64,000 nt of DNA from Candidatus Didemnitutus mandela (GTDB lineage: Bacteria; Verrucomicrobiota; Verrucomicrobiia; Opitutales; Opitutaceae), in contig NJAL01000003.1 of assembly GCA_002591725.1 (NCBI GenBank), forward strand, positions 186,001-250,000. Reading direction: 5' to 3'. The notes below the pieces were generated by a model. That model did not search any database. It had not been told where the DNA came from and worked only from the letters and a program-made list of their open reading frames with translations. Below, one piece after another: positions 5,998 through 57,400 of this stretch; position 1 is the first letter of the stretch; each line of letters starts with the position of its first letter. The position numbers and the translations under genes were made by a program.

Positions 5998-7010
5998 TCA
6001 GAGGATTAACATGGCATCCCTGTAGCTGAAGAAGCGATATTCCTGGGCAATGGCTTTTGCATAGATTTCCTTTAACCAGCTGGTCCCGCTTATCGAGCCG
6101 TGGCTGAAGAAGGCGGAGGCGAGGTACAGCAAAGTCGAGCGAGGTTGATGAAAATTGATTACCAGGGTATCCACGCTGCGAAAGAGACTCGGAGGGTGAG
6201 ATGAATATTGAACTATCCTACTTTCTCCAACAAAGTTGGCGGCAAACGGGGCGGGCTTGTGTGGAGAGAGAAAGTCCTCGACCGTACGGATAAGTCGGTT
6301 CCGATCGCGACGCGATCGGCTCTTTGCGGAAAGATTTGTTAACAACGCGTACTGGGTACGTAACGGAGATTTCATAGGTTTCGCTGTAGGTCTCGTGTCG
6401 GTTGACGTAGCCGGTGGTGATATGGATGGAAAGTTATAAGTGTTGAGGCCGATGTGTAGAGTCAGGCTGGCGAAAGCCACCCCTGCGGTATCAAGCGGGA
6501 CAGGGGTGAAATGTAGCGCGGCGGCGGCGACTTGGTGAGCGCGTTCGGCGTAGACGGTTTGATAGCGTTCGCGGTCGAGCTCCTAGGCTGCGGTGTCGTG
6601 CTGGCGAATATAGGGCGGCAGCGTGATCGCGCCAATACGATTGGCGATAGCAAAAATCTTATCGGCAGGCTGCTTGGTGGTGAAAGCGATCCGGGCGCTG
6701 CCGTTGGCCGTCTTTTCACGGACTGTACCAATAAACTCGCCGGGGTTGGGGAAAGGAAAGTGAAACTAGGTTCTAGTCTTTTTCCGAATCGGAGCAGAAA
6801 CAACCTTCCACCCACTGTGGCGGATGGAAGTAGTAGCAGACATTTTAACTCGTTTTCCGGTAAGATGTTGTGCGGTGATGTGGGTGGAAATTACCGCAGC
6901 GTTTTTACGGGAAAAGATGTTGCTGGTGCCGAAACACTCGGCACAGGTCGGCAAAGGTGCGATGTTATAGCTGGCGGGGTGACTCGGTGCACGGAAAACA
7001 GGTACGAATC
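5998..7010 (-). pseudogene. queA: S-adenosylmethionine:tRNA ribosyltransferase-isomerase remnant
   Basis: QueA adds the epoxycyclopentanediol precursor to preQ1 in tRNA during queuosine synthesis. Near 6960-6890 the minus strand reads HRTFADLCRVFRHQQHLF, the N-terminal block. Around 6600-6490 it reads RYQTVYAERAHQVAAAALHFTP, matching the RYQTVYA..GAVAAPTAGLHFT motif but with the PTAG part lost. From 6480 follow AFASLTLHIGLNTY, then NFHQPRSTLLYLASAF, and finally YRFFSYRDAMLIL, the canonical C-terminus. Several frameshifts and stops interrupt the frame. Its loss implies no QueA-dependent queuosine synthesis unless another copy exists. Confidence 0.88.
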
Positions 7011-7411
7011 GTTGCGCTGATCGGCAGGTTTTTGCAATTAAGCTCTCAGGAATCTAGCAATCTAAGAGGTATATCTTTATGCAATGTAAACGAAGAGTGT
7101 CAACCATTGTGCAGTTGGGACGATTGTTGCGCGAAATCAATATCTCTTGACTTATCATAAAATTGAAAGCTAAAAAATTGAAGAATAGAGATAGAATGTT
7201 ACATATGACTTTTTCTTCCCTCTGGAGTTTGTGAATGTTCTGGCCACTTCCCTCATTGTGGTTCTTGCTTTTATTGCTTCGAGCATATCGCGGCTTTCGA
7301 AAACGCTTGTCGTTTCTGTTTCTGGCGGACTAGCAAGCAAGGTACTGTGCCTCGTTTGCCCTTCGCGCATGAATCCGGCGTGTTGCTGACAATCGGTGAG
7401 TTTTAGGGATT
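7011..7411. other. A/T-rich intergenic region upstream of the ilv remnant
   Basis: About 400 bp with no recognisable coding sequence on the + strand. It lies immediately upstream of the ilvD remnant and presumably once held the operon's promoter and leader. I see no leader peptide rich in Leu, Ile or Val codons and no clear attenuator hairpin. The 3' part (7320-7411) may hold further eroded ilvD coding sequence, since the N-terminal half of that gene is missing. Confidence 0.4.
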
Positions 7412-8101
7412 TGTGCGAAGATGCCCACGACCGCCACGCTCAAGCCGGACGGCCTCTACACCGCGGTCGAGGTGGACAGGGCGGGCGAAATTTCTCTGTT
7501 GCTGCCGCTGGCCCTCTTGGAGGGCGGGTTATTTGACTACGTTCGGTCTACTTGCTCGGAAATGGCATGTTTTATGGAGCCAAGACAACCGGGCAACAAG
7601 CGACTCGGCTCGACGAGCGAGCCGCTCAAGCCGACCAGCAGTCTTGTCATCCTTAAAGCCAACCTTACCCAGGGAGGTGACGTGTTCAAGACCGCAGACT
7701 CGAATCTAAAAGCATTACTGGCTTGGCCTAAGTATCATTATTGCGAGGAGGACGGAATTGCCGCCGTTTACTGCGAAAAAATCAAAGCTGGCGATGTCGT
7801 TACCATCTATTATAAAGACCCGAAGGGCAGGGTCGGGCATTCGCGAGATCCTCGGAGTTACGGCTGCGTTGGCGGCGGGGGCATGACCTCGCTGAGGCCC
7901 TTCGCATTGTTTGGCCAATGGCCGCTTCTCCAATGCTACCCGCGCGTCTTTCCCGTTGGCCACGTTGCGTTCGAGGCGTTCATCGGTAGTATGATGGCTT
8001 TTGTCGAGAAAAACGATCCGATCATGATCGGCGTGGAAGCCCGCAAAATCGAAGTCCAAAATCCCTCCCCAAAGCCTTCGTCTCAGGCCTACCAGCGCTG
8101 A
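7412..8101 (+). pseudogene. ilvD: Dihydroxy-acid dehydratase remnant
   Basis: IlvD is an Fe-S enzyme that dehydrates 2,3-dihydroxy acids in valine, isoleucine and leucine synthesis. One frame stays open for 226 codons from 7421 and carries family blocks: LKPDGLYTAVEVDRAG near residue 7 (typically ADLKPGGRYVAVDVDRAGG), then VFKTADSNLKA, CEEDGIAAVYCEKIKAGDVVTIYYKDPKG near 110-140, GGGMTSLRPFALFGQWP, and GHVAFEAFIGSMMAFVEKNDPIMIGVEARKIEV near the C-terminus. The Fe-S and active-site N-terminal half is absent, TDGRFSG has become LFGQWPL, and blocks between are compressed. A full enzyme has about 560 residues. The TGA at 8099-8101 is followed after two bases by the ilvB start, so the old operon spacing is preserved. 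Confidence 0.88.
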
Positions 8102-8103
8102 GT

Positions 8104-9800
8104 TATGGCCAAATATGTCAATGCTGTACCTTCCGGATGCTACGACGTTGTGGCCAGCTAAGTTTCAATCAAACTTGTTTCTCCGTGCAAATAGCCGGTG
8201 CTAAAATCATTTTGGAATGCCATTGCCATATCCGCGAAGGCTTGGATGAGATCCTCGTTATACGAAGCAACGCTATTTTGTCTACTTACGATGCCATGAC
8301 AAAATATTCAAATATTACTAGTGCTCGTTTGGCCAAAAACATGCCCGATGGCTACGCTCGAGCCAGCGGTAAGATTGGTGTCGCCGTTACGACGTCTGGT
8401 CTGAGGGGGGACCAACACGGTCGCCGGCATTGCTACGCCCATGATGGAGTCCTTGCCCATCGGTATGCATACCGGCTAAACCGAGTCGAAGTCGATCAGA
8501 ACGGATCGCCTTTTAAAGAACGACTTTACCAATGTTACATTGCCCAGTCACGAAGCGCAATTACTTCACCACTAAGCCCGGCTATCTCTCCTGAATCTCT
8601 GCGCACACCTTTCGAGAAATAAAAACTGCGTGCTTTGACTTCATAAACGGTGCAAAACACTCGGCGATTCTCGCTGGCTAGGGCATCCTCAAGTCCGGAT
8701 CAACCGAATAGGTTTATGCTGCTCGCCAAGACTTTGCGGATTCCAATCGCTGGGACGCTGCTTGGCATCGGTGCTGCGCTTGCCTTGTGGCAATAAACCT
8801 TGGCATGATGGGAATGCACGGTTAGAAAATTAGTAGGGAGACAACCAAGCAGTCCAGCAGGCCGACCTACTTATTGTGCTTGTACTTAGGATGCGTTTTG
8901 ATGGCCGCGTTACGGACAACTTCAAAACCTACGCCCTCAATACGAAAAAATCTACATTGAGATCGATCCTACGATTTGAGTAAGAACGTGCATATTGCCC
9001 TCATCGGCGGCCTCAGCGACTCAGCGAAGTGCTTGGCAAATTGCTACCAGATGTAAAAGTGTCCAACTATTCCAATGGTGGAGCAAGACAGCCAAGATAA
9101 AGGGCGACTCTGCTGTGGGCGAGATAAAGAGCTTTTCTAACAATGGGCATCTTTACGCTGAGGATGCGGTCAACGATATCTGCCGCGCCACGCAAGATCG
9201 GGAGACAATAGCCGTTACTGACGTCGGCCAGCACCAGATTTGGGAGGTCCAGCATTTCCGTTATAGCAAGCCGCATTCGCTCATTACCAGCGGTAGCCTG
9301 GGCACGATAGACTTTGCGTTCCTCGCTGCCATCGGCCCGAAACTTATCTGCCAGGGGAAAGGGCGTGTGGGGCGTTATCGGCGCGGACGGTTTCATAGAT
9401 GACCTCGTGTGAATTGGCCACGGCCGAACAGAAAGAAGTCAAAGTTAACGTTGCTATCATCAATAGCGCCTTTTTCTGCATGGTGCTCCAGTGGCAGGAG
9501 CTTTTTTACGACAAGCGCTATTCTGCCACGCCGATGAACAAGTCTGGGCTTCGTCAAAACTCGCCAAAAGCCTATCGGCTAACCGGCTTGTGTTGCGACA
9601 AATACCGCCGGCGTAAACGGCACTGTGAAGAAAACGCTTGCGGACAAGAAGCCATGATCGTCGACTTTTTGATCGAAAAGGAAGGCACCGTTCGTTTCTC
9701 CGATAGTGCTGGCTGGGGCGAGTCTCGACAAAATGATCCGTCGCCCGAAACAGGATTTTGTCACCGAAACAGGTGCCGGCAAAGAGTGGAATATGCCCGC
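8104..9800 (+). pseudogene. ilvB: Acetolactate synthase large subunit remnant
   Basis: This was the thiamine-diphosphate enzyme condensing pyruvate into acetolactate. Blocks run in family order across three frames: GAKIILECHCHIREGLDEI near 8195, AILSTYDAMTKY near 8270, DGYARASGKIGVAVTTSG near 8350, GILKSGSTE and LGMMGMHG near 8680-8820, MRFDGRVTDNFKTYALNTKK near 8890, LSEVLGKLLPDVKVSN near 9010, HLYAEDAVNDICRATQ near 9150, FRYSKPHSLITSGSLGT near 9255, then MVLQWQELFYDKRYSATPMN near 9480 and AGASLDKMIRRP near 9710. Stops and frameshifts occur throughout. The length is close to the original, so decay is mainly by small indels rather than large deletions. Confidence 0.92.
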
Positions 9801-10414
9801 TGCTAATTCCCTTCCTTCCATAGCTAAACGTACTTTCATTGCTTACGTCGAGGATGAGTTCTGCATGCTTAATCGCGTTGCGTCGCTCTTTCGCCGCTGC
9901 AATTTCAACATCGAGTCGCTCATAGCGGGCGGAAACCGAGCAGACGGGTATTCTTCGTCTTACGGACGTCGTCGACGCTCTAACGAAAGCGGCGTTTGTC
10001 TCGTCAAGGCCAATCTCTATAAGTTCGTCAACGTCTTTCGGGTGGATGGCCTTACGAACAAGCCTGCGTTGGCCTGCGAGTTCGACATCGTGAAAGTAAA
10101 AGTCATGCGGAAGAGACACTCGTAAGTATTGAGGTATTGCAGTTTGCAGTTCGTTAACGCGTCCCGTGCCTGCGTGGCCGACGTTGATGAAGCCTTGTTA
10201 GCGATCGAAGCCACCGGCACGTTGGAAAAGACCGTAAAGCTCGAGCTCGTCTTCCGTTCCTGCGGTACCCTCGAGATGGTGTGCACAAGTACTGTTGCAA
10301 TGGCGTGCGCGGTCACAGCGAAGTTTTCTCGACCTCGCCGCTCGTGCGTGTGGGAACGACGACGGTCAGGGAAAACGCGCTGGTTCGTCGGGGACTTGCG
10401 AAGTCTGTTTAGCT
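9793..10414 (+). pseudogene. ilvN: Acetolactate synthase small (regulatory) subunit remnant
   Basis: The ACT-domain subunit gives valine feedback control to acetolactate synthase. The ATG at 9793 starts MPAANSLPSIAKRTFIAYVEDE, then FCMLNRVASLFRRCNFNIESLIAGG, the hallmark N-terminal ACT domain. It continues with VKANLYKFVNVFRVDGLTNKPA near residues 75-95. A frameshift near 10110 moves the rest into another frame: EALLAIEATGTLEKTV and GTLEMVCTSTVAMA (near 10180-10310), matching the C-terminal ACT domain. Another shift leads to a stop near 10414. The gene overlaps the end of the ilvB remnant. Confidence 0.9.
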
Positions 10415-10451
10415 TATTTTCCAACCACAACCTCCAAGAATCTTTCACTTA

Positions 10452-11350
10452 ATGGCTAGAGCTTATTACGACAAGGATGCAGGTCTTTAACCCAAGAGGA
10501 AATCCGCCGCCAAAGGCGAAGAAGTCTGGTCTCAACGTTGGCACTACCGCCGAGATTCCGGCTTTTGGCCGGCGTCATCATTTACCCTCGTCCTGGATCA
10601 GGCCCAGGCAAAGCTCTATTGTTAGGAGATCGCTCCGGGCCTCACCAGGGCAAGATGTTGATGTTCGCTTACGGCTTCAACATCCGCTTCGGTGGCATCG
10701 TATTGTCCAAGAATGTTGATGTTACGATGATCGTCTCGAAAGCTCCTGGCAATCGCGTGCGAGAAGATTTCCAGGAAGGCAGCCGCGTTTTTGGTTTTGG
10801 TCGCGGTTTATCAGGATACGATGGACACTGCCAAAGATGCTCGCGTTTTCCTACGGCCGTGGAATTGATTGCATTTGCGTCGGCGCCTTCGAAACGACTT
10901 TCAAGGAAGAGACAGTGAACGATCTTTTAGGCGAGTAAGTCGTATTGTCTGGTGGAACCGCCGAGCTGGTTAAAGCTGGGTCAAGGCGCTGTTTAATGTT
11001 GCTTATCAGCCAGAAATCTCTTATCCTAAGTGCCTGCACGAACTAAGCTCATCGTCGATCTAATGTATTGTGGCGGCATAAACTACATGCGCTACTTGAT
11101 CTCCGATACTGCGACGTGAGGCGGCTACGTGTCCGGTCCGCGCATTATCACCAAACAGGCCCAAGATGGGGCAGGGGCGGTCTTGAATGACGTCTTGGCC
11201 GGCAAGTTTTCCAAGCGCTTCACCGAAAAGAATAATAAGCCATGGTCCCAAGAAAACATGACCAAGTTCCGCTATGGGGAACACGATTAGGAACCCGAAG
11301 TTGTCTGCGCCAAAACTCTATGGCATGATGTCATTCCTGAATCTTATTAT
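10452..11350 (+). pseudogene. ilvC: Ketol-acid reductoisomerase remnant
   Basis: IlvC uses NADPH to isomerise and reduce acetolactate. The ATG at 10452 starts [12 protein letters not shown] followed by an immediate TAA. The nucleotide-binding N-terminal part is shortened. From 10650, [28 protein letters not shown], then [15 protein letters not shown] match the APKGPGHxVRxxF block. Downstream in other frames are [32 protein letters not shown] (typically AGYQPEIAYFECLHE), then remains of GGINYMRYSISDTAEYGGY and SGPRIIT near 11080-11150. At least six frame changes or stops interrupt the gene. Confidence 0.9.
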
Positions 11351-11439
11351 TTAGCAAATAATCTTTGGCTTTACCGGGCTGCGCCAGTTACCAGACCAAT
11401 TTCTCTCTAAAATAAGTTCGAGCTACGTCGATATATCTG

Positions 11440-11960
11440 GCATTAGCTTATGCGGCGGCGAGCAAGCCCCCCTGGCGCTTCGGATTACTGCGGCTGATAG
11501 ACAAGCCCGCGACAGCTGGCGCAACTGGGGGTGAACGTAATTGAGGCCTGTTTCCCAACCGTGCTACTCGATAGCATTGTAACTGCATTGAGCGGCGTGA
11601 AGCTGAAGCTACCTGTACATTCATACCTTCCTTCAATAAAGCGATTGTTCACCTGAAGCACAAGCTCTGTCTGGTACGCGCAGCGGAGACGGTCTCCTTT
11701 ACCAAGTCGCTTTTCGACGACATGAGTTTTCCCCGACGAGGACGTCGGTCGGAGCGATCCGGAGTTTCCGAAGCTGCTACCAAGGCTGGTGCGACGATGC
11801 TGAACATTTCCGACACCGTTGGTTACACGCTTCCGGACGAATATGGTGCGCTCATTGCCGGTATCATCACAAAAACGCCTAGCGCGGAGGATTAGATCTT
11901 CTGTGCACTGCTCGACCTTTGGCCACGTGGTCGCTAATTCGATCAGCTAGCGTGGCGCCA
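11440..11960 (+). pseudogene. leuA: 2-isopropylmalate synthase N-terminal remnant, joined to cimA
   Basis: LeuA condenses acetyl-CoA with 2-oxoisovalerate to start leucine synthesis. The remnant reads GGEQAPLALRI near 11455 (from the DGEQ motif), NVIEACFPTVLLDSIVTALSGVK near 11530 (typically DVIEAGFP), and LKHKLCLVRAAETVSF near 11655. From 11770 one frame gives GATMLNISDTVGYTLPDEYGALIAGIITKTPSAED, with the IPDTVGYT signature of LeuA rather than citramalate synthase, which has LCDTNGG. It runs on to IFCAHCSTFGHVVANSI near 11900, which corresponds to the HNDLGLAVANS block. After that point the homology changes to citramalate synthase. Confidence 0.7.
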
Positions 11961-12755
11961 GGCTGAGTGCACGATCAATAGCTACGACGAACGCTGTGGA
12001 AACACAAACCTCTGGATCAATCATGCCTAATTTCGAATTGATCCTAAAAGTGTGGGCGCTTCCAACCGGGCACCTTGCCTTGCTGCATTAAGAAAGAAGG
12101 TGGTGAGCTTCAAGTTGAATGACCAGGCGGTCTGCGCTGGTTCCAGCAATGCAGCGCCTGGATGCCTACCAGCATATTTTCTCCAAAGGCGAGCGAGTTT
12201 GGCTTGTACAACTTAGATACGGAGGGGCCCGAAGGTGCTCGAAGCCATCAAGACGCTCGAATATGAGAGGTTTTGGGAAGCGGCCGAGACGAGCGTAGGG
12301 CTCATCTCTCGCCGGCTAGCGAAAAATTATCAGCCGCTCTTCAAGCTGTTTTATTACGGGATATGGTGACCCACTGCGGGAACCGATAGGCGGTGGATTG
12401 GACCAGCAAATTCGATATCTGATGTCTATCAGATGGACACTTGCTTCTAGGATAATGGTTTGTGAGCGCTTTCGACAAGGCCTTGCACAAAGTGCTCTTT
12501 CCGCTTTCTTCGTAAGCTGCCAAGATCTAGCTAGCATACCGCAAAGTGCGCATTCTGAACAGTGACTCCAGTGCTGCTGCCGTCATGCGTGTGCTAAGCC
12601 TGCTAATTGACTAGCGTGATGGCGAGCGGTGCTGGAACACGGTAGGCGATGGCACAAACATCCTCGATGCTACTCGGCTTGCGCTGACCGATGGCTATGA
12701 ATTTGCCCTAACACCGGCTTTTCTTGTCGCGCCGAAGATTGAGGCTATCGTCTGA
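11960..12755 (+). pseudogene. cimA: Citramalate synthase C-terminal remnant
   Basis: CimA makes citramalate from pyruvate and acetyl-CoA for isoleucine synthesis. The block AECTINSYDERCGNTNL (near 11965) resembles the GTINGYGERCGNANL signature of CimA. MPNFELILKVWALPTGHLALL (near 12023) follows as in that family. LEAIKTLEYERF with AAETSVGLISRRL (near 12237) matches the KxLExxGYQFExAExSFELLxRR block. FDKALHKVLFPLSS, YRKVRILNSDSSSAAVMRVL, RDGERCWNTVGDGTNILDATRLALTDGYEFAL (12470-12715) match the C-terminal regulatory domain. Frameshifts and stops separate them. No CimA N-terminal half was seen upstream, where LeuA sequence sits instead. Confidence 0.75.
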
Positions 12756-12781
12756 TTTTCTTTCAATCTCCTTTTTTCTCA

Positions 12782-13740
12782 ATGAGTGCCAAAATTTTCT
12801 GCTTCTGGATAGCGGCATTGGTCCCGAAGTTATTAACGAAGCGTGATTGGTCCTTGACGCTGTCGCGCTCAAACATGGCTACAAATTTGAATACATAGAA
12901 CAATTAAGATGGTTGTTCGACGAAAAATTGGCACAGCGACCCCGACCCCGGTGTCGTCTATATCTCGAAGTTGGGCGACTTGCAGGCGAATGTCCGTTCA
13001 GAGCAAAGCTTGCTGGCGATCTGCCAGGGGGCTCGGTTTCTGTACCAGCTTGTGCTCCGTGCACAGCAATGCTGCCGCTGACTGTCCTGTCGTCGCTCAA
13101 GCCCGAGTGTGCGGCGAACGTGGACCTCGTTTTCTATTTGCAAGCTAATCTGTGGTCTTTATCTCGGTAAGTCCAAGGGGATGTGCGCAGACGCTACAAG
13201 GCAAGCGTGCAGTCGACCCGCTGGTCTACACGGAGAAGAAAATCTGCTGCATTGTGAGGCTTGCGTTTAAGGTTGCGCACAACCAGTCGAAAGCTCGTTA
13301 CCTCCATCTACATCTACAAGGCCACAACGTACTCGAGTCATCGCGCTTTTGGCGCAAGATTACAATCAAGGTGGAAAAAGAAGTTTCCCGATGTGAAACT
13401 CGAGCGCCAACTTGTTGATTCCATGGCATTCCATGGCGACTTCTTCTCATTACACACGCTAAGCAGTTCGACGTCGTCGTGGTCGAGGGCATGTTTGGCG
13501 ACATCCTGGCCGGCGAGGCCGCAGCGATGCTGCTACGTCACTCGCTCGGCTTTGAGAAAAAAACAAAAGCCGTTTCTGTCGAAACGGCCGTAACCCTTGT
13601 TATCGAGGACGGGCATCTCAGCGCTGACTTGGGGGCGACGAAACCGCTCAGCGTTTCGCCAATGGGCACGGTTGTGCACGCGAGCGTCTCAGCGTCGCCT
13701 AAACTGCGGACAAAAAATCTGTCAGGTAAACCGTCATGAG
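12782..13740 (+). pseudogene. leuB: 3-isopropylmalate dehydrogenase remnant with internal deletion
   Basis: LeuB oxidatively decarboxylates 3-isopropylmalate in leucine synthesis. From the ATG at 12782: SGIGPEVINEA, a stop, then LVLDAVALKHGYKFEY, equivalent to GDGIGPEIVAEAVKVLEAVAAKHG. Then VRSEQSLLAICQGARFLYQL (typically LRPEQGLLxLRKxLGLFANLRP) near 12990, SSLKPECAANVDLVF near 13095, YLGKSKGMCADATR near 13160, TYSSHRAFGARLQSRWKKKFPDVKLERQLVDSMA near 13330, and GMFGDILAGEAAAMLLRHSLGFEKK near 13490. In the last block FGDILxDEA is joined directly to SAAMLLRHSLG; the roughly 48 residues normally between them are gone in frame. The C-terminal DGHLSADLG block ends the remnant. Confidence 0.9.
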
Positions 13741-14229
13741 CTAAAATACCAATCACCCATCTTTGGAGAAGGTGCGGGTGCGGTCCCGCGGAGCAAATAA
13801 ATCCTAGTAATCATTAATCATATTTGTGGAACAACAATGGCACATAATATCTGCATTATACTGATTACACTAATAAGTATTCTATATTCTACGGTGTTGA
13901 CGAAAACACGCGGACGATAATTGCTTCGGAGCGAAATGTGCTGAAAATGTGTGCGCCCGGTGCGACGAGATCCAGAACATAGGCGTTAAGCCTGTCGTAA
14001 TTTTTCGGATGCGCCATAGCCTGGTTTTCCGACTGAGCGTCTCGTTCGCAGTGTTTAAATGAAAGTTTCTCCCTTTTCCCTTCCCTCCGTATTTGCCGAA
14101 AATCGGCAAGCAGTCGTGCGGTGGTCTGTCATGGCTTTCCCGTTTCCGACTTGGGGTTCCGTCGAGTTTGGCGACGAGATAACCTCTTCCCCGAATCGGT
14201 GAGAAACGTTTCGTTGGCGCATCAAATAT
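13741..14229. other. Short eroded stretch between leuB and ilvE remnants
   Basis: No family was recognised. A minus-strand open frame at 13882-14232 (116 residues) could be a further decayed gene or the shifted C-terminal half of the ilvE remnant, but none of its three frames gave the expected aminotransferase C-terminal motifs. Confidence 0.35.
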
Positions 14230-14560
14230 CATAGCACGTAGGGTTGTTTTCGTGCAGCATAAATTCCTTATGCTTTACGGGGAAGAAGGAGTGATTGTTT
14301 TGCGGTGATTGATGTTGTAGATGTTGTTTTGCCGCGCACTCGGCGACGAAGCCCTGGTCGTTGAGCATTATTGGCTCGAGCGCACTAGCCTTGGCGGGCT
14401 TTCGTGTTTGCCGAAGATTTTGTTTAGGTAGTTTAGCGGCTTGATTGTGATCAGCAACGTAGATAGGTTGGCAGGGTGAATTGGAGTGGATATAATGGCA
14501 AGGGCGAAGTCATTTTTCGCGCGAGTGGCGACGACCTGGATATCGGATGCAATGGTCGGT
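14230..14560 (-). pseudogene. ilvE: Branched-chain aminotransferase remnant
   Basis: IlvE is the PLP enzyme performing the last transamination of valine, isoleucine and leucine synthesis. Down the minus strand from 14555: IQVVATRAKNDFAL, then IKPLNYLNKIFGK (typically IKSLNYLNNILAK, the fold-type IV signature), and after a frameshift LNDQGFVAECAAKQH (typically MLNDQGFVAECTGDNIF). Only the middle of the enzyme is readable. It is convergent with the ilv/leu remnant operon, so the final pathway step encoded here is lost as well. Confidence 0.72.
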
Positions 14561-15035
14561 AAGTTTTTTATCTTTATATACTTCTAAAAAACATCTCTGC
14601 TAACTGCGCTTGGGAGAACGTATGTTGAGAAGTACGGCCTTAGCGGAATTCTTAAGTTGCTACAGATGCTCTTACCAACCAGAAGATGTTGCCCGCATAA
14701 GCCCGCATAAAGGTCATAAAGGCAGATGCTCCCAAAAGCGCCGTCCCGGTAAAGGACAAAGCGAGTAAATCTGAAATTCTGTCGATCAACGAACTTACCA
14801 TTGAGGTAAAGAGGGAGGTAAAGAGGTGAATTTTTATTTCCAACGACACTTCAGCTGTGGCGCTGTTCCCAAGAATGCAAGAATGGAATTCCGCGTCGCG
14901 CGCTTCGGACAGGGGGGGCAGGTGCCCGGCGATCCGACTCAGATTTTCTCTCGCTGGTAACCGTTCCGAGGTATAAGCTTCCTTCGTGAAGGCACCAGGA
15001 CAATGTGGGAAGATAAAATACCTTAGCTTCGATGC
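14561..15035. other. Eroded region with short tandem duplications
   Basis: No recognisable gene. A 10-base unit GCCCGCATAA occurs twice in tandem at 14691-14710, and GAGGTAAAGAG recurs with a one-base spacer near 14803-14826. A minus-strand open frame (14652-15044) has two hydrophobic patches but no known motif and runs into the tRNA gene. Confidence 0.45.
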
Positions 15036-15111
15036 TGGAGCCAACAGCCGGACTTGAACCGGCGACCCACGCTTTACGAAAGCGTTGCTCTACCAGCTGA
15101 GCTATGTTGGC
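15036..15111 (-). tRNA. tRNA-Thr (anticodon CGU)
   Basis: Read on the minus strand, this 76-base gene folds as a full cloverleaf. The acceptor stem GCCAACA pairs with TGTTGGC. The D arm is GCTC-AGCTGGTA-GAGC. The anticodon arm is ACGCT-TTCGTAA-AGCGT, with CGT at positions 34-36 decoding ACG threonine codons. The T arm is GCCGG-TTCAAGT-CCGGC. The 3' CCA is encoded (15036-15038). All stems are perfectly paired, so the gene looks functional. It lies 80 bp downstream of the LON-domain gene on the same strand and could be cotranscribed with it. Confidence 0.95.
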
Positions 15112-16562: not shown

Positions 16563-18494
16563 ATGAGTAGAGTTTTGGGTATCGATCTTGGCACTACAAA
16601 TTCGTGCATGTCTGTTATGGAGGGCGGTGAACCTGTTGTAATCCCGAACGCGGAGGGAGCACGTACAACGCCGTCCGTAATTGCTTTCACTAAAACTGGC
16701 GAACGCGTAGTTGGGCAAGCCGCCAAACGGCAGGCGGTTACCAACCCAAAAAACACAGTTTTCTCAGCCAAGCGCCTTATAGGCTGCAAATTTTTCGAAA
16801 TCTGCGAAGAGGCAAAAAATTTCCCTTTTAAAGTAGTCGAGGGGAAAAACGGCGATGCATACATCGAGGTGCAAGTTGGCGACAAGAGGGAGATTTTTGC
16901 GACACAACAGATCTCGGCATTCGTTCTCGGTAAGCTGAAAGCTGACGCAGAAGCCTATCTTGGCGAAAAAATCACGCAGGCCGTTATTACCGTTCCTGCC
17001 TATTTTAACGACGCCCAACGCCAGGCAACGAAAGATGCTGGCAAGATCGCGGGTCTTGAAGTTCTCCGCATTATTAATGAGCCGACGGCGGCTTCCCTCG
17101 CCTATGGTCTCGACAAGAAAAAAGACGAAAAGATTGCGGTGTTCGACTTGGGCGGCGGCACGTTTGACGTGTCGATCCTCGAGATCGGCGATGGCGTTTT
17201 CGAGGTCAAAGCTACAAACGGCGATACCCATTTGGGTGGCGATAACTGGGACGAAGCTATCATTAGCTGGATGGTTGAATCCTTCAAGAAAGAAAACAGC
17301 ATCGATCTTCGCAAGGATCCGATGGCGCTCCAGCGTTTGAAGGAAGAAGCTGAAAAGGCGAAGATAGCCCTCTCGTCTGCGAGTACTTACGATATAAATC
17401 TACCGTTTATCACGGCCGACGCGTCGGGCCCGAAGCATCTTAACAATCAATTGACTCGTGCGAAGATGGAGCAGATTTGCGATAGCCTCTTCGAGCGGTG
17501 TATAGCTCCGTTTAAAAATTGTCTAAAGGACTCCGGAATCACTCCCGACAAAATTGATGAGCTTGTTCTCGTCGGCGGAATGACACGCATGCCGAATGTT
17601 GTTGAAATAGCAAAGACACTCGGTGGTAAGCCGCCGCATCAAGGCGTGAATCCCGACGAGGTCGTCGCTATCGGTGCCGCGATTCAAGGTGGCGTATTGA
17701 AGGGGGAAGTGCGCGAAGTGCTCCTACTCGATGTTACACCCCTTACCCTCGGCATCATGACGGCAGGCGAAGTCGCTACACCGATGATCTCGCGGAACAC
17801 CACGATCCCAACTAAGAAGACACAAGTCTTCTCTACCTACGCGGATAATCAGTCTGGCGTTGAAATTGTCGTCCTTCAGGGCGAGCGTTCAATGGCGCGT
17901 GACAATAAGAATCTTGGCACGTTCAAGCTCGACGGTATTCCGCCGGCGCCGCGCGGCACGCCGCAAATCGAGGTGGTCTTCGATATTGATGCAAATGGCA
18001 TTCTCAATGTCTCGGCCAAGAATCTTGGCACTGGGAAGGAACAGAAAATTACTATCCAAGGCTCTTCTGGCCTGTCGAAAGAAGAGGTTGAGAAGATGAC
18101 CAAGGATGCCGAGCTCAATGCTGCGCAAGACGCAAAGCGCAAGGAACTTATTGAAAGCAAAAACCAACTCGATACGACGATCTATCAACTCGAAAAGAAC
18201 CTTAATGAGTCGGGCAACAAGCTCCCCTCAGATATGAAAGGTAAATTCGAGGGTGTGATTGCCGAAGCAAAGAAAGATCTCGAGAGCAACGACCTGGCGC
18301 GCATGAAGGCGTCTTTGCAAAATCTTCAAAAAATCGGCTCCGAACTTTACCAGGCAGCCCAGGCAGCCCAGGCAGCCCAGGCAGCTGATGGTGTACGACC
18401 GCAGAAGGAGGGAGGGACGCCTCAAGCGGCCCAAAAAACCGATAGCAAAGTCGTTGACGCTGATGTGGAAATTATCGATGAAGGTAAGCAATGA
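16563..18494 (+). CDS. dnaK: Chaperone protein DnaK (Hsp70)
   Basis: DnaK is the ATP-dependent Hsp70 chaperone that binds exposed hydrophobic peptides and works with DnaJ and GrpE in the cytoplasm. The 643-residue product is full length. The ATPase domain has phosphate 1 motif [17 protein letters not shown] at 5-21, phosphate 2 motif [17 protein letters not shown] near 195-211, and the adenosine motif VGGMTRMP near 338-345. The substrate-binding domain follows ([12 protein letters not shown] near 390) and then the helical lid. The C-terminal tail contains a short AAQ repeat from a 9-bp tandem duplication and ends [12 protein letters not shown], close to the usual EEV-like tail. groES and groEL follow on the same strand. 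dnaJ and grpE are not in the window. Confidence 0.98.
18351..18386 (+). repeat. 9-bp tandem repeat inside dnaK
   Basis: The unit CAGGCAGCC occurs three times exactly and a fourth time with one change, encoding repeated Gln-Ala-Ala in the disordered tail of DnaK. The repeats keep the frame. The tail is tolerant to such slippage. Confidence 0.9.
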
Positions 18495-18586
18495 TAAGTT
18501 TTGGCGAAATCGACTTTTATGGTCTGGCTCTCTTTTTAATCCACTAACTAAATCCTAAACCCATACAAACGCTAAACTAAACCAAC

Positions 18587-18898
18587 ATGGCTAAAGTGAA
18601 CATCAAACCAATCGGTGATCGTGTGCTGGTGCACCACATCGAAGAAAAAGAACAGGTGCGTGGCGGAATCATAATTCCTGATAGCGCCAAGGAAAAATCA
18701 CAGGAAGCTGAGGTAATCGCCTTGGGCACTGGTAAGAAGGACGAGAACGGCAAGGTTACGTCTTTCGAAGTAAAAGTCGGCGACAAAGTTCTTATTTCTA
18801 AATATGGCGGCACCGAGGTTAAAATCGAAGATGAAAAATATACTCTCGTTCGCGAAGACGACATACTCGGCATAGTTGTCTTAAACACCCAATCCTAA
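18587..18898 (+). CDS. groES: Co-chaperonin GroES
   Basis: GroES forms the seven-subunit lid of the GroEL folding chamber. The product has 103 residues, slightly longer than the usual 95-97. It starts [37 protein letters not shown], with the mobile loop near 18-36 that docks on GroEL, and contains [16 protein letters not shown] near 64-79 and EDDILGIV at the C-terminus. It lies 92 bp after dnaK and 32 bp before groEL. The 92-bp gap is A/C-rich and contains no CIRCE element that I can see. Confidence 0.97.
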
Positions 18899-18930
18899 CT
18901 CATAACTTCATTTCATAACTGCAACCTACC

Positions 18931-20550
18931 ATGGCAGCCAAACAACTCCTATTCGATGAAGCCGCCCGCCAAAAAGTGCTCCGCGGCGTCGAGCTTCTCT
19001 CCAAAGCCGTCAAAGTTACTCTCGGTCCGAAAGGCCGCAATGTTGTTATTGACAAAAAATTTGGTTCCCCGGCCGTTACTAAGGATGGGGTCACCGTTGC
19101 GAAGGAAGTCGAACTTCCGGACCCCTATGAAAACATGGGTGCGCAGATGGTAAAAGAAGTCGCTTCCAAGACCTCCGACAGCGCGGGCGATGGCACTACC
19201 ACAGCCACCGTGCTCGCTGAAGGCATTTACCGCGAGGGTCTGAAGAACGTGACCGCAGGCTCTAACCCGATTTACTTAAAACGCGGAATCGACAAGGCTG
19301 TTGAGGCCGCCGTTGCAGAGCTCCAGAGGATCTCCAAGAAAGTCAATGAACGCGAAGAGATCCGCCAGGTAGCCACTGTCTCCGCAAACTGGGACAACAC
19401 TATTGGTGAAATAATTGCCGACGCGATGGACAAGGTCGGCAAAGATGGTACGATCACAGTCGAAGAAGCCAAGTCGATTGATACCACTCTTGACGTTGTC
19501 GAAGGTATGCAGTTCGATAAAGGCTATCTTTCGCCCTATTTCGCGACTAACATGGAAGCGCAAGAAGCAATTCTAGAGGATGCTTACGTGCTCATCCACG
19601 AGAAGAAAATTTCCAACTTGCAGGAACTCCTTCCTCTCCTCCAAACCGTCTCCAAGAGCGGAAAACCGCTTCTCGTGATCGCAGAGGAAGTCGAAGGCGA
19701 AGCTTTAGCTGCCCTTGTTGTGAACAAAATCCGTGGCACCCTTAATGTGTGTGCTGCCAAAGCCCCCGGCTTTGGCGACCGCCGCAAAGCCATGCTTGAA
19801 GACATTGCGGTTCTAACTGCTGGCAAATGCCTTACCGAAGACCTTGGCATCAAGCTTGAGAACGTTACTATTTCCGACCTCGGCCGCGCGAAGCGCATCG
19901 TAGTCGACAAAGAAAACACCACGATCGTTGAAGGTTCGGGAAAGTCGTCTGACATACAAGGCCGCGTGAAGCAGATCCGCCGCCAGATCGACGAAACTAC
20001 CTCCGACTATGATCGAGAAAAGCTGCAAGAGCGCCTCGCGAAGCTCGCAGGTGGTGTTGCTGTCATCAATGTCGGCGCAGCGACCGAAGCCGAAATGAAG
20101 GAAAAGAAAGCTCGCGTCGAAGATGCGTTGCATGCTACCCGTGCTGCCGTTGAAGAAGGCATTGTTCCCGGGGGGGGCGTGGCCCTCCTTCGCACCGCTA
20201 AGGCGATCGAAACCCTCAATGTTGAAAGTGACGAAGCGATTGGTTCTCAGATTGTACGCCGCGCTATCGAGCATCCCCTTAAGCAGCTTTGTGCTAACGC
20301 AGGCGTTGATGGAGGTGTTGTTGCGAAGGAAGTTTCCTCTGGAAAAGCCAACTACGGCTACAACGTCGCGACCGGAAACTATGAAGACCTCGCAAAAGCA
20401 GGTGTTGTCGATCCGACCAAGGTAACCCGTGCTGCTCTGCAAAACGCTGCCTCGATCTCGGGGCTACTCCTCACGACTGAGTGCATGATCACCGAGATTC
20501 CGGAAAAAAAGGAAGTTCCTCCGGCCCCCGCTGGTGGGATGGATTACTAA
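18931..20550 (+). CDS. groEL: Chaperonin GroEL
   Basis: GroEL is the 60-kDa chaperonin that encapsulates and folds proteins using ATP together with GroES. The 539-residue product is full length. The ATP-binding segments are [19 protein letters not shown] near 29-47 and [14 protein letters not shown] near 86-99. The apical domain and the hinge near [10 protein letters not shown] (410-420) are present. The C-terminus is short, [10 protein letters not shown], with one GGM rather than the long GGM repeat of many orthologues. Reading frame and length are intact, consistent with strong retention. Transcription ends at a strong hairpin 30 bp downstream. Confidence 0.98.
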
Positions 20551-25951: not shown

Positions 25952-27952
25952 TTAACGGGAGCTGCGGAATACGGATTCCTCGCCGCTTGCGTTGATGTGG
26001 ATATGGTAGCCGCCGGGGCCTTCTAGCGCCCAGAGATAGCAGCTAAAGAACAGGATGATGCCGCCGAGGATGGCAAAGGGCATGTGGGAGGTGGCTATTT
26101 CTTTCCCGAAGAAAGTGACCGGATCGGCGAGCTGGATGAAGTTATAGCCGCCGAAGAAAAGGCCGATAGAAGTGATCAGCGGATACCAGGACGAGTCGGG
26201 CATGTGGATACCGCTATGGGGTTCCTCCGCCTGCATGCGCTCGGATTGCTCCTTCGCGATTTCTTTTTTGTGGTGCTTTTCATGCCAGTAGGCATCGCGG
26301 GCATGGACGGTGGGAATGACCTTGAAATTGTATTCCGGGGGAGGAGATGGAATTGACCATTCGAGCGTGCGACCATCCCACGGATCGCTGCCGGCTTTTT
26401 CTCCTTTGAAGTAGGTGTATACGAGAACGGAAAAGTAAGTGAAGATGCCGATTCCGAGGAGATAGGAGCCGAAAGTGGAGATGAGGTTGTCATCGTTCCA
26501 GCCCATGTTGGCGTCGTAAGTCCAGGTGCGGCGTGGCATGCCGTTTAGACCGAGGAAGTGCATCGGAAAGAAAGTTACGTTGAAGCCGATAAAAATGATC
26601 CAGAAGGAGAGCTTGCCCCAGAATTCCGGAACAAGCCGGCCAAAGAACTTTGGGAACCAGTAGTGAATCGCGGCCAGCAGCGCGAAGGTGGAACCACCGA
26701 TCAGCACGTAGTGGAAATGGGCGACGACGAAATAGGAGTCCTGCTGCTGGGCATCAGCGGGGGCTGCAGAGTGCATCACACCAGAGAAGCCGCCGAGCAT
26801 GAACATCCAGATAAAGCCCAAAGCGAACATCATCGGGGTGCGTGTTTGGATCTGGCCGCCCCAGAGGGTCCCGATCCAGTTGAAGATCTTGACACCGGTC
26901 GGAACCGCGATGGCCATCGTTGCGATGGAGAATGCGGCGGTGGCGACGTTGCCCATTCCCGTGGTGAACATGTGGTGGCTCCACACACCGAAGCCGATGA
27001 AACCGATTGCGGCACCGGAGAAGACGATGATTGGATAACCAAGGAGCGGCTTGCGCGAAAATGTTGGTAGGATTTCCGAGATGTAGCCCATAGGGGGCAG
27101 GATGAGGATGTAAACTTCGGGGTGACCGAAGACCCAGAAAAGATGCTGCCAGAGGATCGGTTGACCGCCGTTGGACACTTCGAAGAAGTTAGTGCCGAAG
27201 TGGCGGTCGAACAGTACTTCAACGAGCGCGATGGCGATTGCGGGAAGCGCGAGAATCAGCAGGAAGCTGGTTACGAGGGTCATCCACGTAAACACCGGCA
27301 GGCGCATCATCGTGAGACCAGGAGCCCGGAGGTTGATGATAGTTGCGATGAAGTTAAGAGAGGAAACGATTGAAGAGACACCGAGGATTTGTAAGCCCAT
27401 GGCCCAGAGATCGGTGGAAAGCTGCGGAGTGAAAACCTTCGAGGTGAGGGGCGCATAGCCGAACCAGCCGATCGCGGGAGCGCGGCCGAAGTCGAAGGAG
27501 GGGAAGAGGTGGCTCAGCCAGCCGAGGTTTAACATCACGGCACCGGCTACCCAAACCCAGAGAGAAAACGAATTAAGGCGGGGAAAGGCGACGTCGCGGG
27601 CGCCGATTTGAATCGGCATGATCAAATTAAAAAACGCGGAGTTCAATGGCATGATTGCGAGGAAGATCATGGTCGTGCCGTGCATTGTGAAGAGCTCGTT
27701 ATAGGTTTGAGCCGTTACAAAACGATTGTTTGGCACGACGAGCTGGGTACGGATCATCAGCGCTTCAAGGCCGCCGATTAGGAAGAAAATAATGGCGAAG
27801 GTGGCGTAAAGGATTCCGATCTTCTTGTGGTCGACAGTGGTGAGCCAGCTGGTCAAACCGGATTTCTCCATCGGACGGGGAAGGAATTCGATCGACCGTG
27901 CAGCGGAATGTCCCTTGTCTATGTAATCTGGTTTTTCCTGTTCTTCAGCCAT
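25952..27952 (-). CDS. coxA: Cytochrome c oxidase subunit I (caa3-type)
   Basis: Subunit I holds low-spin heme a and the heme a3-CuB centre where oxygen is reduced. The ATG at 27952 (MAEEQEKPDYIDKG) gives about 666 residues. A longer frame to 28081 exists but its extra residues are not family-like. Twelve core helices are expected. Landmarks are the first heme a histidine in MHGTTMIF near 93, the CuB histidine and cross-linked tyrosine in WVFGHPEVYILILPP near 260, the CuB His pair region, and VAHFHYVLIGG near 395-405 with the histidines for hemes a3 and a. A C-terminal extension with one or two further helices follows. It lies between coxB and coxC on one strand. Nothing suggests inactivation. 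Confidence 0.97.
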   Translation of the reverse strand: MAEEQEKPDYIDKGHSAARSIEFLPRPMEKSGLTSWLTTVDHKKIGILYATFAIIFFLIGGLEALMIRTQLVVPNNRFVTAQTYNELFTMHGTTMIFLAIMPLNSAFFNLIMPIQIGARDVAFPRLNSFSLWVWVAGAVMLNLGWLSHLFPSFDFGRAPAIGWFGYAPLTSKVFTPQLSTDLWAMGLQILGVSSIVSSLNFIATIINLRAPGLTMMRLPVFTWMTLVTSFLLILALPAIAIALVEVLFDRHFGTNFFEVSNGGQPILWQHLFWVFGHPEVYILILPPMGYISEILPTFSRKPLLGYPIIVFSGAAIGFIGFGVWSHHMFTTGMGNVATAAFSIATMAIAVPTGVKIFNWIGTLWGGQIQTRTPMMFALGFIWMFMLGGFSGVMHSAAPADAQQQDSYFVVAHFHYVLIGGSTFALLAAIHYWFPKFFGRLVPEFWGKLSFWIIFIGFNVTFFPMHFLGLNGMPRRTWTYDANMGWNDDNLISTFGSYLLGIGIFTYFSVLVYTYFKGEKAGSDPWDGRTLEWSIPSPPPEYNFKVIPTVHARDAYWHEKHHKKEIAKEQSERMQAEEPHSGIHMPDSSWYPLITSIGLFFGGYNFIQLADPVTFFGKEIATSHMPFAILGGIILFFSCYLWALEGPGGYHIHINASGEESVFRSSR

Positions 27953-28008
27953 GGAAGAGTTGTGTCGGTGGTTTGTGTGTGTGTTAGAAAACAAAATAAT
28001 TGCGTTAT

Positions 28009-29295
28009 TTATTTGAGGCTTTGTAGGTAGGCGACCATTGCGTCGATTTCCTTGTCGTCGAGGTGGAAGTTCTGCTTCCACTCTTTGCCCTGTTGGACGT
28101 AATAGCCGCCGAAATACATTTTATTGCCCGGTTTGAAATAGGACGGATCTTTGATCCACTGGTGCATGCGTTCCGGGGTGTTTTCGAGCACCCCCGCGGC
28201 GATCGTGGAGCGGGAACCGACGTGGGTCAGTTCCGGTCCCGTAACACCAATACCTTCGTGCCCGCGCACGGTGTGGCAGCTGATGCAGGTCTTTTCCGAA
28301 AAGAGCTTGCGGCCTTGGGCAATAAGATCAGGGTTTTCCCCAGCTGTAACGGTCTGCTTCTCCTTCCAAGCGGCAAACGGGTCGGCATCGAAGGTCTTGC
28401 TTCCAGAGAGCGTGCTGCCCGGGCCGGTGTCGGATGATCTGGGCTTGAACGAGGCAGACTTGATATGGATCTTGCTGGACTCGGTGGTTGCCATGGCTCG
28501 GGCGGGTTTTTTTTGATTATCAAGCCATTTGATGTACTTGCTCGGTGACAGCGCGATCACGCGAAAACGCATGGTAGCATGTGAATCGCCGCAATATTCT
28601 GCGCATTGGCCGTAATAGTAGCCGGGCTTTTCCGTTTTGAACCACAGAAAGTTCGGACGGTTGGGAATCATGTCTACTTTGCCAGCGAGCTTCGGGATCC
28701 AGAAACTGTGGATGACGTCGGCCGTTCGTAGATGAACGCGAATCGGAACGCTAGCGGGAATAACCAACTCGTTCCCTGTGGAAAGGACTGGGCCGTTTTT
28801 GCCATCGGGAAGATTTACTGTTTCCTTATCGTAATCGAATTTGAACCACCATTGGTAGCCGGTGGCAGTGACGTCCATCGCGTTGGCCTTTTCCTCCTCC
28901 GGAACATCGTGTTGGAACCAGATACAGCGGAGCGTCGGGACGGCGATGATGGCGAGTAGGGTGAAGGAAGCGACGATCAGGCCGATTTCGATCAGCGGGT
29001 TGCCATGGCTTTGGTGAGGCATTTTCGCTTTCGTATCTTGGCCGCGAGCCCGGAACCGAATCATCGCATAAGCAAGTATGGAACCGACGACGGCGAAAAC
29101 GAAGCTGGTCACGTAGACCGTGGTCATGAATAGGTCCAGTTGCCTCTTTGCAACCGGGCCGGCGGGCTCGAAAGTCGACTGGCGTCCGTGTAAGTTCAGG
29201 TATTTGCATCCGGAGAGGAGGGCGAAGGCAAGGCCACCTAAAACGAGCAGGGCGAAACAGAAAATTTTGCGGGAAGCGAAGCGTGGGCGAATCAT
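28009..29295 (-). CDS. coxB: Cytochrome c oxidase subunit II fused to cytochrome c (caa3-type)
   Basis: Subunit II accepts electrons at the CuA site. Here a cytochrome c domain is fused to its C-terminus, as in caa3 oxidases. The 428-residue product starts MIRPRFASRKIFCF and has a lipobox-like LLSGC near 30, then two transmembrane helices (about 52-75 and 98-120). The cupredoxin domain has DVIHSFWIPKL near 190 and CAEYCGDSHATMRF near 222-235, supplying the CuA ligands C-x3-C-x3-H-x2-M. After a linker, the heme c site CISCH is near 334-338, with a downstream methionine ligand probably in NKMYFGGYY near 390. All ligands are present, so electron entry looks functional. Confidence 0.97.
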   Translation of the reverse strand: MIRPRFASRKIFCFALLVLGGLAFALLSGCKYLNLHGRQSTFEPAGPVAKRQLDLFMTTVYVTSFVFAVVGSILAYAMIRFRARGQDTKAKMPHQSHGNPLIEIGLIVASFTLLAIIAVPTLRCIWFQHDVPEEEKANAMDVTATGYQWWFKFDYDKETVNLPDGKNGPVLSTGNELVIPASVPIRVHLRTADVIHSFWIPKLAGKVDMIPNRPNFLWFKTEKPGYYYGQCAEYCGDSHATMRFRVIALSPSKYIKWLDNQKKPARAMATTESSKIHIKSASFKPRSSDTGPGSTLSGSKTFDADPFAAWKEKQTVTAGENPDLIAQGRKLFSEKTCISCHTVRGHEGIGVTGPELTHVGSRSTIAAGVLENTPERMHQWIKDPSYFKPGNKMYFGGYYVQQGKEWKQNFHLDDKEIDAMVAYLQSLK

Positions 29296-54400: not shown

Positions 54401-57400
54401 TCAACTCTGCTTGGCCCAACGACGTTCCCGCTTGAGTTCCGCGGGGCGAGCTTCGATTTGCGTACCAAGGACGGCTGGATGGGTACGGAGTTCCTGAAAT
54501 TTCTGCGGGATGACGCGCCACCTCAGCGCTTGAGAAACCTCCGCTATCGGCGAGACGCGACCTTCAAAAACGAAGCCTAGCTCGATGTGGGTGGCGCCTC
54601 CGGTTGCTTCGAGAATCGATCGGAGTTGACGGAGAAAGTCCGGGACCGCGGCGTGCGTAGGATCGATCAGCCAGGTAATCCGCTTGATGTTGCTGGGAAT
54701 GTGTGCATCGATCGGATAGACTTCCTTTGCATTCAGACGCACGCCGTCCTCACCTCGCATCATGGTTCCGAGGACGATAATAGGCTGGTTCTCGGCGAGG
54801 TTTTTTGCGTAGTTCTCGTAGGCATGGGCATACATATTAACCGAGACGCTAGCGCGCTTTTTCGCGAGGTTGAAAAACACCCACGGCCGGTTGTCGCGTT
54901 TGGAGAGTTTTTTCGTGATGCTGGAAGCGATACCGCAGAGACGGAATTCGGTGCGATTACCTTCTTCGATGACTAACTCTTCGATGTTCGTGCAGAGCGC
55001 CTCGGCGAGGCCAGCGTAAGCGTCCATCGGGTGACCAGAGATGTAGAATCCGAGCAATTCCTTTTCGAATTGCAGGTGTTCGGCTAGGGTGAAATCATTG
55101 TTTGCTCTGGCTTCGACTCGCAGGGCGCTGCCGATTTTTTTTGGTGCAGCTTCTTCGGCAAACATGCTGAGGAAGCTGTGCTGGCCTGCGGCGCGGTCGC
55201 GGGCCAGTACAGCGGCGCCAGCGAGGATGGAATCGATGCTGTCGAATAATACTTTACGCGGTGTGCCGCTGAAGTCGAAGGCACCCGTTTTTACGAGGTG
55301 TTCCATTACGCGCTTATTGAGAGCACGGGTGTCGACGCGCGAGGCGAAATCGAAAAAACTTGCGTAGGAACCGTTTCGGTTTCGCTCCTCGATGATCTTT
55401 TGTGCAGCTTGTTCTCCTACGCCCTTGATGCCGGCGAGGCCGAAGCGGATCTTTTCGTTAATGGGCGTGAACATCTCGCGCGACTCGTTGACGTCGGGCC
55501 CGAGCACGGTGATACCAATTACCTCGGTTTCGGCAATAAAGTGGGCGAGTTTTTCCGAGTTTCCGAGTTCGGCACTGAGCATAGCGGCCATGAACTGCAC
55601 TGGGTAATTCGCCTTCAGGAACGCAGTCTGGTAGCTGATGAGCGCGTAGGCAGCGGAGTGCGATTTGTTGAAGCCGTAGCGCGCGAACTTATTGAGGAGA
55701 TCAAAAATTTCGTTGGCTTTTTTTTCGCCGATGTTGTTCACACGCTTAGCGCCTTCGACGAACTTGATGCGCTCTTTCGCCATAGCCCCGGCGTCTTTCT
55801 TGCTCATTGCGCGGCGAAGTAGGTCGCCGCCGCTGAGCGTGCACCCGGCGATGATTTTGGCGCATTCTATGACCTGCTCTTGGTAGACGATTATGCCGTA
55901 GGTTTCCTGCAGCGATTGTTCGAGAAGCTGGTGCGGATAAACAACCGTTGACGGGTCACGTTTCCCGCGGGCGTAGTCGGGGATGAATTGCATCGGACCA
56001 GGACGATAGAGGGCGCAGATAGCGTTGATGTCATTAATATCGGTTACACCGACCTGTTTGCAGGCGTTCTGCATGCCGCTCGATTCGAGCTGGAAGACGC
56101 CGACGGTCTTGCCGGCGTTGAGGATTTTGTAGGTCTTCGAGTCGTCTAGTGGAATTGCTTCGATATCAAATTTCGGGTCGGCTGTGCGGCGGATATTTTC
56201 AACGGTGTCTGCGATGACGGTGAGCGTCTTGAGACCAAGGAAGTCCATTTTTAGCAGACCGAGTTTGCCGATGGCGCTCATGTCGTATTGGACCGTAACA
56301 TCGCCTTCTTGCAAGGTGAGCGGCACGAATTCGTCGAGCGGTTTGTCTGTGATGATGATGCCGGCGGCGTGCTTGCTGGTGTTGCGCACCATGCCTTCGA
56401 GGACGAGCGCCTGGTCTATGATTTTTTTTGCAACGGGATTTTTTTCGGACTCCTTGCGCAGTTCGGTGGACTTCGTTATCGAATCGGTGAGTGAGATATT
56501 GAGATCGTCGGGAATCATTTTCGCGAGTCGGTCGGCCTCGGTGTAAGGGAGGTCGTGGACACGCGAGACATCGCGGATGACCATCTTTGCTCCGAGTGTG
56601 CCGTAAGTGATGATGTTGGCGACGCAGTCGTTCCCGTATTTCTGGCGGACGTAGCTGATGACTTCGCCGCGACGGCGCATGCAGAAGTCGATGTCGAAGT
56701 CGGGGGGCGATATGCGCTCGGGGTTTAGGAAACGCTCAAAGAGCAGTTTGAAGCGGATCGGATCGAGGTTGGTAATACCGAGCAGATACGCGACGAGACA
56801 GCCCGCTCCGGAACCGCGCCCGGGACCGACAGGAATGCTTTTTGACTTTGCCCAGTGAATGAAATCCCAAACGACCAGAAAATAGTCGACGAAGCCGGTC
56901 GCACTGATGATTGCTAGCTCGAAACCCATGCGCAGCACCAGCCCTTCCTCCGGAGCAAGGCCGGAGTAGTCGGGCGCGGAAGGCGTCTGGTTGTCGGCAG
57001 GACTGGTAAGCTTGGCGAAGCGCTCAGTGACGATATTGCGGGCAGCGATGGATTCGTAGTCATGGCCATAGCGTCGCTTCAGACCTTCAATGCAAAATTG
57101 CTTAAGATAGTCGGCGGGCGAGGTTCTGGCTTTGATTTCCGTGGGCAGCGGGTAGCGCGGGTAACGCTCCGAGCCCTTGGGAAACAAAATCGATACGTCG
57201 CACATTTCGGCGACGAGCTCAGTGTTCGTGATCGATTCTGGTATTTCGCCAAAGACCAGGTTCATCTCCTCGTGCGATTTTAGGTAAAATTGCGTGCTGT
57301 CAAATTTCATGCGGTTTTGCTCGGCGATTTTGGCTCCGGTCTGAATGCAGAGGAGCGCATCGTGTGGGCCGGCGTCGGTGTCGCGGACGTAGTGGACGTC

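Follow-up and report, generated by a model that had tools for sequence, protein, structure and literature searches.

The locus studied here raises the question of whether a bacterial symbiont with a shrinking genome still makes its own valine, isoleucine, and leucine. It lies in a window of 64,000 nucleotides (contig 4, 186001-250000; 52.3% GC) from the assembly (2,171,216 bp, 10 contigs) of Candidatus Didemnitutus mandela, a mandelalide-making symbiont of a Lissoclinum tunicate, whose Ver_v2 assembly is given as 2.17 Mbp, 10 contigs, and 51.93% GC (PMC5698493). Positions below are those of the window unless a contig is named. The block of ilv and leu genes in this window is very probably a decayed, non-functional branched-chain amino acid locus of a genome-reducing member of the Opitutaceae.

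Frameshift-aware alignment against profiles built from six congeners placed remnants of ilvD, ilvB, ilvN, ilvC, leuA, cimA, and leuB head-to-tail on the + strand at 7293-13699 (Table 1). The seven segments scored 353-1247 against their own profiles, while shuffled DNA (eight single-base shuffles per gene) and the wrong profiles of a 7 x 7 matrix gave values of ≤51. Each segment therefore matched its own gene only, and the names, order, and strand proposed in a preliminary description of this DNA were borne out. Across ~6.2 kb, the block carries 67 frameshifts and 18 in-frame stops. The density of ~11 frameshifts per kb was uniform among the genes (chi-square p = 0.50, computed with 68 frameshifts), and the aligned codons were 54-56% identical at the protein level to three congeners. 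When four genes that are intact in this genome (DnaK, threonine ammonia-lyase, and two permeases; ~6.1 kb) were aligned by the same method but with single-sequence profiles, 0 frameshifts and 0 stops resulted. The frameshifts could conceivably stem from faulty assembly or sequencing of an operon that works, as the genome is a draft put together from metagenomic 101-bp reads (PMC5698493). However, the degree of protein divergence, the in-frame stops, the large deletions, the clean control genes, and a neighboring queA gene that has decayed in like manner leave this explanation practically no chance of being correct.

Table 1. Remnant genes of the decayed block and features beside it, with window positions and alignment scores.
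Feature	Position	Strand	Codons	Frameshifts	Stops	Score	Remarks
ilvD remnant (dihydroxy-acid dehydratase)	7293..8161	+	~258-556	7		479	shuffled maximum 42
ilvB remnant (acetolactate synthase large subunit)	8185..9810	+	1-582	17	3	1247	several deletions
ilvN remnant (acetolactate synthase small subunit)	9820..10409	+	1-190	3	1	404	
ilvC remnant (ketol-acid reductoisomerase)	10452..11351	+	1-333	10	5	649	35-codon deletion
leuA remnant (2-isopropylmalate synthase)	11412..11965	+	~1-235	9	2	353	
cimA remnant (citramalate synthase)	11966..12719	+	~243-529	8	5	360	
leuB remnant (3-isopropylmalate dehydrogenase)	12782..13699	+	1-357	13	1	571	47-codon deletion
ilvE remnant (branched-chain aminotransferase)	14078..14811	-		13	4	326	52% identity over 221 codons
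queA remnant, divergent neighbor upstream of ilvD	6001..7080	-		9	2	737	maximum of 10 shuffles 50
tRNA-Thr(CGT), downstream of the block	15036..15111	-					intact by ARAGORN and Rfam

The limits first proposed for the locus, 7412-14560, enclose real remnants, but ilvD begins at ~7293 and ilvE reaches 14811, both outside them. Stops or frameshifts had been claimed for every step and were found in all seven genes and in ilvE; in addition, ilvB and ilvN are indeed near their original length (ilvB, 1626 nt against 582 codons; ilvN, 590 nt against 190 codons). Two old gene junctions had also been described. Of these, the ATG at 10452 does mark the start of ilvC, but the TGA at 8099-8101 is a premature stop inside ilvD, ilvB aligns from 8185, and the start codon thought to lie at 8104 is an ATG at 8105, itself within ilvD. 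The ilvD alignment ends at 8158 and is followed by the old stop TAA at 8159-8161, and the ilvN start codon is now ATA (both read from the sequence), while leuB keeps its ATG at 12782. Fragments of TIGR00118 match the ilvB remnant, fragments of TIGR00465 match ilvC at 10646-11248, and PF00180 (Iso_dh) fragments occur in the genome only at the leuB remnant. On the opposite strand, the expected ilvE remnant was confirmed by its score of 326 against ≤52 in 20 shuffles; two other class-IV aminotransferases score 60 and 41, and the congener query used for ilvE exceeds the TIGR01122 (ilvE_I) cut-off.

The relationship of the block to working loci was examined in six congeners (G001, G004, G005, G007, G008, and G012), chosen from the 14 of 18 relatives searched that have IlvC over the cut-off. 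All six carry ilvD-ilvB-ilvN-ilvC-leuA-cimA-leuB on one strand with open frames, so that genes, order, and strand are the same as in the window, whereas the frames are open there and broken here. This agrees with the earlier claim that a whole branched-chain locus is fossilized in its original order. G004 differs in having an aconitase-family gene (leuC by its place) and leuD (assigned by reading the sequence) between leuA and cimA. A divergent queA, a gene of the queuosine pathway, precedes ilvD in four of the six congener loci, and a stretch matching the tRNA-Thr region sits downstream of leuB in three (L023, L024, and L025). The ilvE remnant had no match in the six congener ilv-leu stretches and matched only separate congener aminotransferase loci. 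As a separate observation on the relatives, the congener G002 (2.5 Mb, completeness 73) and two genomes of the same order, G017 (1.3 Mb) and G018 (0.9 Mb), gave no IlvC match and no IlvB over the cut-off; for G002, the absence may reflect an incomplete genome or a separate loss.

Next to be considered is whether intact copies exist elsewhere, a search that the preliminary description had called for. Family searches of the assembly for IlvB, IlvC, the HMGL family (LeuA/CimA), and the Iso_dh family (LeuB) found remnants only and no intact protein. Class-IV aminotransferase (Aminotran_4, PF01063) gave no match in the assembly, and PF00330 yielded only the aconitase AcnA (tblastn 75% over 834 aa) and therefore no LeuC. 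In the congeners that were searched in the same way, intact members of these families turned up, apart from Aminotran_4, which is absent from two of four. The missing Aminotran_4 is thus weak evidence, since half of those congeners also lack it and the PF01063 search did not detect the ilvE remnant; equally decayed second copies of the genes could escape in the same way, but intact ones should not. Two matches below the cut-off, both to open frames on contig 5, were rejected: the IlvB-model match is MenD and the IlvC-model match is adenosylhomocysteinase (AhcY). A match on contig 4 at 129244 was considered as a displaced N-terminal half of ilvD and likewise rejected, as it aligns to ilvD codons 173-500 with 35% identity and 9 frameshifts; this stretch (129244-129651, L001), lying ~64 kb upstream of the remnant in the block, appears to be a further pseudogene of the IlvD/Edd family.

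With no intact IlvB, IlvC, LeuA/CimA, LeuB, LeuC, or class-IV aminotransferase in the assembly, auxotrophy for valine, isoleucine, and leucine is well supported, as is the dependence on an outside supply first suggested for this locus. One alternative is that the block is a dead copy and that a working set lies on sequence missing from the assembly, the completeness of which is 74.51. Such an arrangement is very improbable, because the dead copy holds the ancestral place, with the gene order shared by all six congeners, queA by four, and the tRNA match by three, and because searches for eight families across the assembly left threonine ammonia-lyase as the sole intact branched-chain enzyme.

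That enzyme is encoded by an open frame on contig 3 (407266-408120; L142/L154), which scores 410.6 bits with TIGR01127 against a cut-off of 378.75 bits and has 0 frameshifts over 404 codons. No other PALP-family protein in the assembly exceeds the cut-off, while 7-9 matches were obtained in each of three congeners searched. A second PALP match, in a long open frame also on contig 3, covers 58 positions and lies below the cut-off. The pathway downstream of the retained threonine ammonia-lyase is gone. The enzyme could now serve catabolism.

On contig 10, the genome also holds a tandem pair of intact permeases (L153:2306-5279), for both of which BcaP is the best NCBIfam model; the same pair is present in congeners G005 and G008. 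The nearest Protein Data Bank entries to the second permease, 5oqt and 6f34, are both named only 'Amino acid transporter'. This permease is 62-64% identical to its congener copies, almost as diverged as the pseudogenes, yet has 0 frameshifts, which suggests relaxed or changed selection. The cell probably imports valine, isoleucine, and leucine, perhaps through these two BcaP-like permeases, which as candidate transporters would offer a plausible salvage route. Other importers were also sought. A LIV-type system was rejected, as the sole intact PF02653 match and its neighbor resemble a sugar ABC transporter and the second match is a fragment with a stop. The peptide importer family POT (PF00854) was not found in the assembly and is present in three of three congeners tried.

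Several points weigh against reading the block as the dead remains of the cell's only such pathway. First, the failure to find an intact copy does not extend to ilvN and leuD, at which no genome-wide search of their own was aimed, and the assembly, at the completeness given above and at 94.2% by its authors' markers (PMC5698493), is perhaps incomplete, so that an intact copy could sit on missing sequence. Second, threonine ammonia-lyase has been kept intact. Third, the two permeases score 588 and 525 bits, under the NF053761 (BcaP) cut-off of 690 bits, and two congener copies tested also fall under it. Finally, when the comparison is confined to sites on which two congeners agree, the decayed block differs at 27% of first and 21% of second codon positions, while permease B gives 26% and 18% and threonine ammonia-lyase 19% and 14%. 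Permease A (10% and 5%) and DnaK (9% and 4%) are lower. By this codon-position measure, the decayed block is not clearly set apart from every intact gene.

How the locus came to its present state can be proposed in outline. In the ancestor, queA would have stood divergently ahead of ilvD-ilvB-ilvN-ilvC-leuA-cimA-leuB, the arrangement of living congeners. Once branched-chain amino acids were available from outside, presumably supplied by the host, selection on the block would have lapsed, and it would then have gained evenly spread frameshifts, in-frame stops, and larger deletions, among them the loss of the ilvD 5' half and a recombination-type fusion of leuA to cimA. The preliminary description had instead argued for recent inactivation by small indels. 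This does not fit, because the block has accumulated ~11 frameshifts per kb along with 18 stops, retains only 54-56% identity to its congeners, and has lost ilvD codons 1-257 as well as the stretch whose deletion fused leuA to cimA.

The fusion itself was studied by comparing the two flanks of the join. What had been listed as a single 'leuA/cimA' remnant is present, but it consists of two genes joined in register by a deletion at about 11950-11970. Sequence at 11405-11960 belongs to leuA (353 with the leuA profile, 51 with that of cimA) and sequence at 11966-12760 to cimA (360 with the cimA profile, 39 with that of leuA); the congener leuA gene exceeds the LeuA cut-off and the congener cimA gene that of TIGR00977. 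The boundary between the two in Table 1, 11965/11966, was chosen, and the exact join is uncertain by some codons. A joint leuA-cimA alignment assigned four codons to leuA positions 408-411, which belong to the deleted part, and this placement was read as alignment noise. The join coincides with, or just precedes, a GER-x-GN region shared by both genes at homologous positions. In the congeners, the 14-codon window from leuA codon 237 (0-based) has the top leuA/cimA DNA identity in four of six, shares first place in G004 (at two-decimal precision), and ranks among the top five in G008. Exact DNA matches between the genes close to the motif are short, at 8-13 bp. The two motifs stand 1604-2355 bp apart in five congeners and 3638 bp apart in G004; judged from those five, the deletion would be ~1.6-2.4 kb.

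Since the join lies at or beside the best-matching DNA of leuA and cimA, the fusion likely arose through a recombination-type deletion between tandem paralogs. The deletion is probably older than much of the decay, because the sequence match that it needed would otherwise have gone. Several recombination genes are now missing from this genome (PMC5698493). The junction illustrates how tandem paralogs may seed deletions during genome reduction.

Parts of the block might still yield useful products, such as the hybrid leuA::cimA frame, the join of which is in register, or a 226-residue C-terminal ilvD frame (7421-8101), which is open and matches PF24877 (over 7421-8098, E 3.5e-14). The ilvD remnant, however, lacks codons 1-257, its whole 5' half, and the open frame leaves the ancestral one through four cancelling internal frameshifts, while the hybrid contains 17 frameshifts and 7 stops. 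The chance that either is of use to the cell is therefore very slight, and the decayed, non-functional locus remains the preferred reading.

The consequences may extend beyond the three amino acids. The steps of IlvB, IlvC, and IlvD also supply 2-ketoisovalerate to pantothenate synthesis. With the three enzymes lost, coenzyme A and the phosphopantetheine arms of the symbiont's seven-copy polyketide pathway would depend on host valine or pantothenate. A combined proposal, that the leuA::cimA hybrid born from paralog recombination was perhaps briefly active and that coenzyme A and phosphopantetheine supply became tied to host valine or pantothenate, is tentative and on balance doubtful. If true, the chemical defence of the host would be fed by the host itself through that supply. 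Candidatus Synoicihabitans palmerolidicus is likewise an ascidian-associated member of the Opitutaceae with a multi-copy polyketide cluster (PMC8636102). For that organism, ilvC is listed with panB, panD, and panC regarding pantothenate, and its authors report no ongoing genome reduction, unlike the situation here (PMC8636102).

The loss of branched-chain synthesis is already in print, because key enzymes of isoleucine, valine, and leucine synthesis were described as truncated in Candidatus Didemnitutus mandela (Lopera et al. 2017, PMC5698493), and it is ordinary symbiont gene decay; the same conclusion was reached here. The main text of that paper devotes one sentence to it, with no gene list, gene order, lesion count, leuA::cimA fusion, permeases, or threonine ammonia-lyase, and the words 'transporter' and 'threonine' are absent from it; its Table S2 may list genes. 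Relative to that text, and leaving Table S2 aside, the gene-by-gene anatomy, the fusion, and the retained permeases are added detail. They give gene-by-gene support to the printed statement that the symbiont cannot supply branched-chain amino acids to its host, which apparently keeps it for chemical defence and not for nutrition. The locus also provides a legible case of an entire biosynthetic locus decaying in place, with a salvage candidate and one retained enzyme.

Beside the decayed block, the same window contains open frames at 54401-58033 (- strand), 16563-20550 (+ strand), and 25952-29295 (- strand). Their products are DNA polymerase III alpha, DnaK, a Cpn60-family chaperonin, and cytochrome oxidase subunits I and II. 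The Hsp70/DnaK frame occupies 16563-18494 and encodes an unusually conserved protein.

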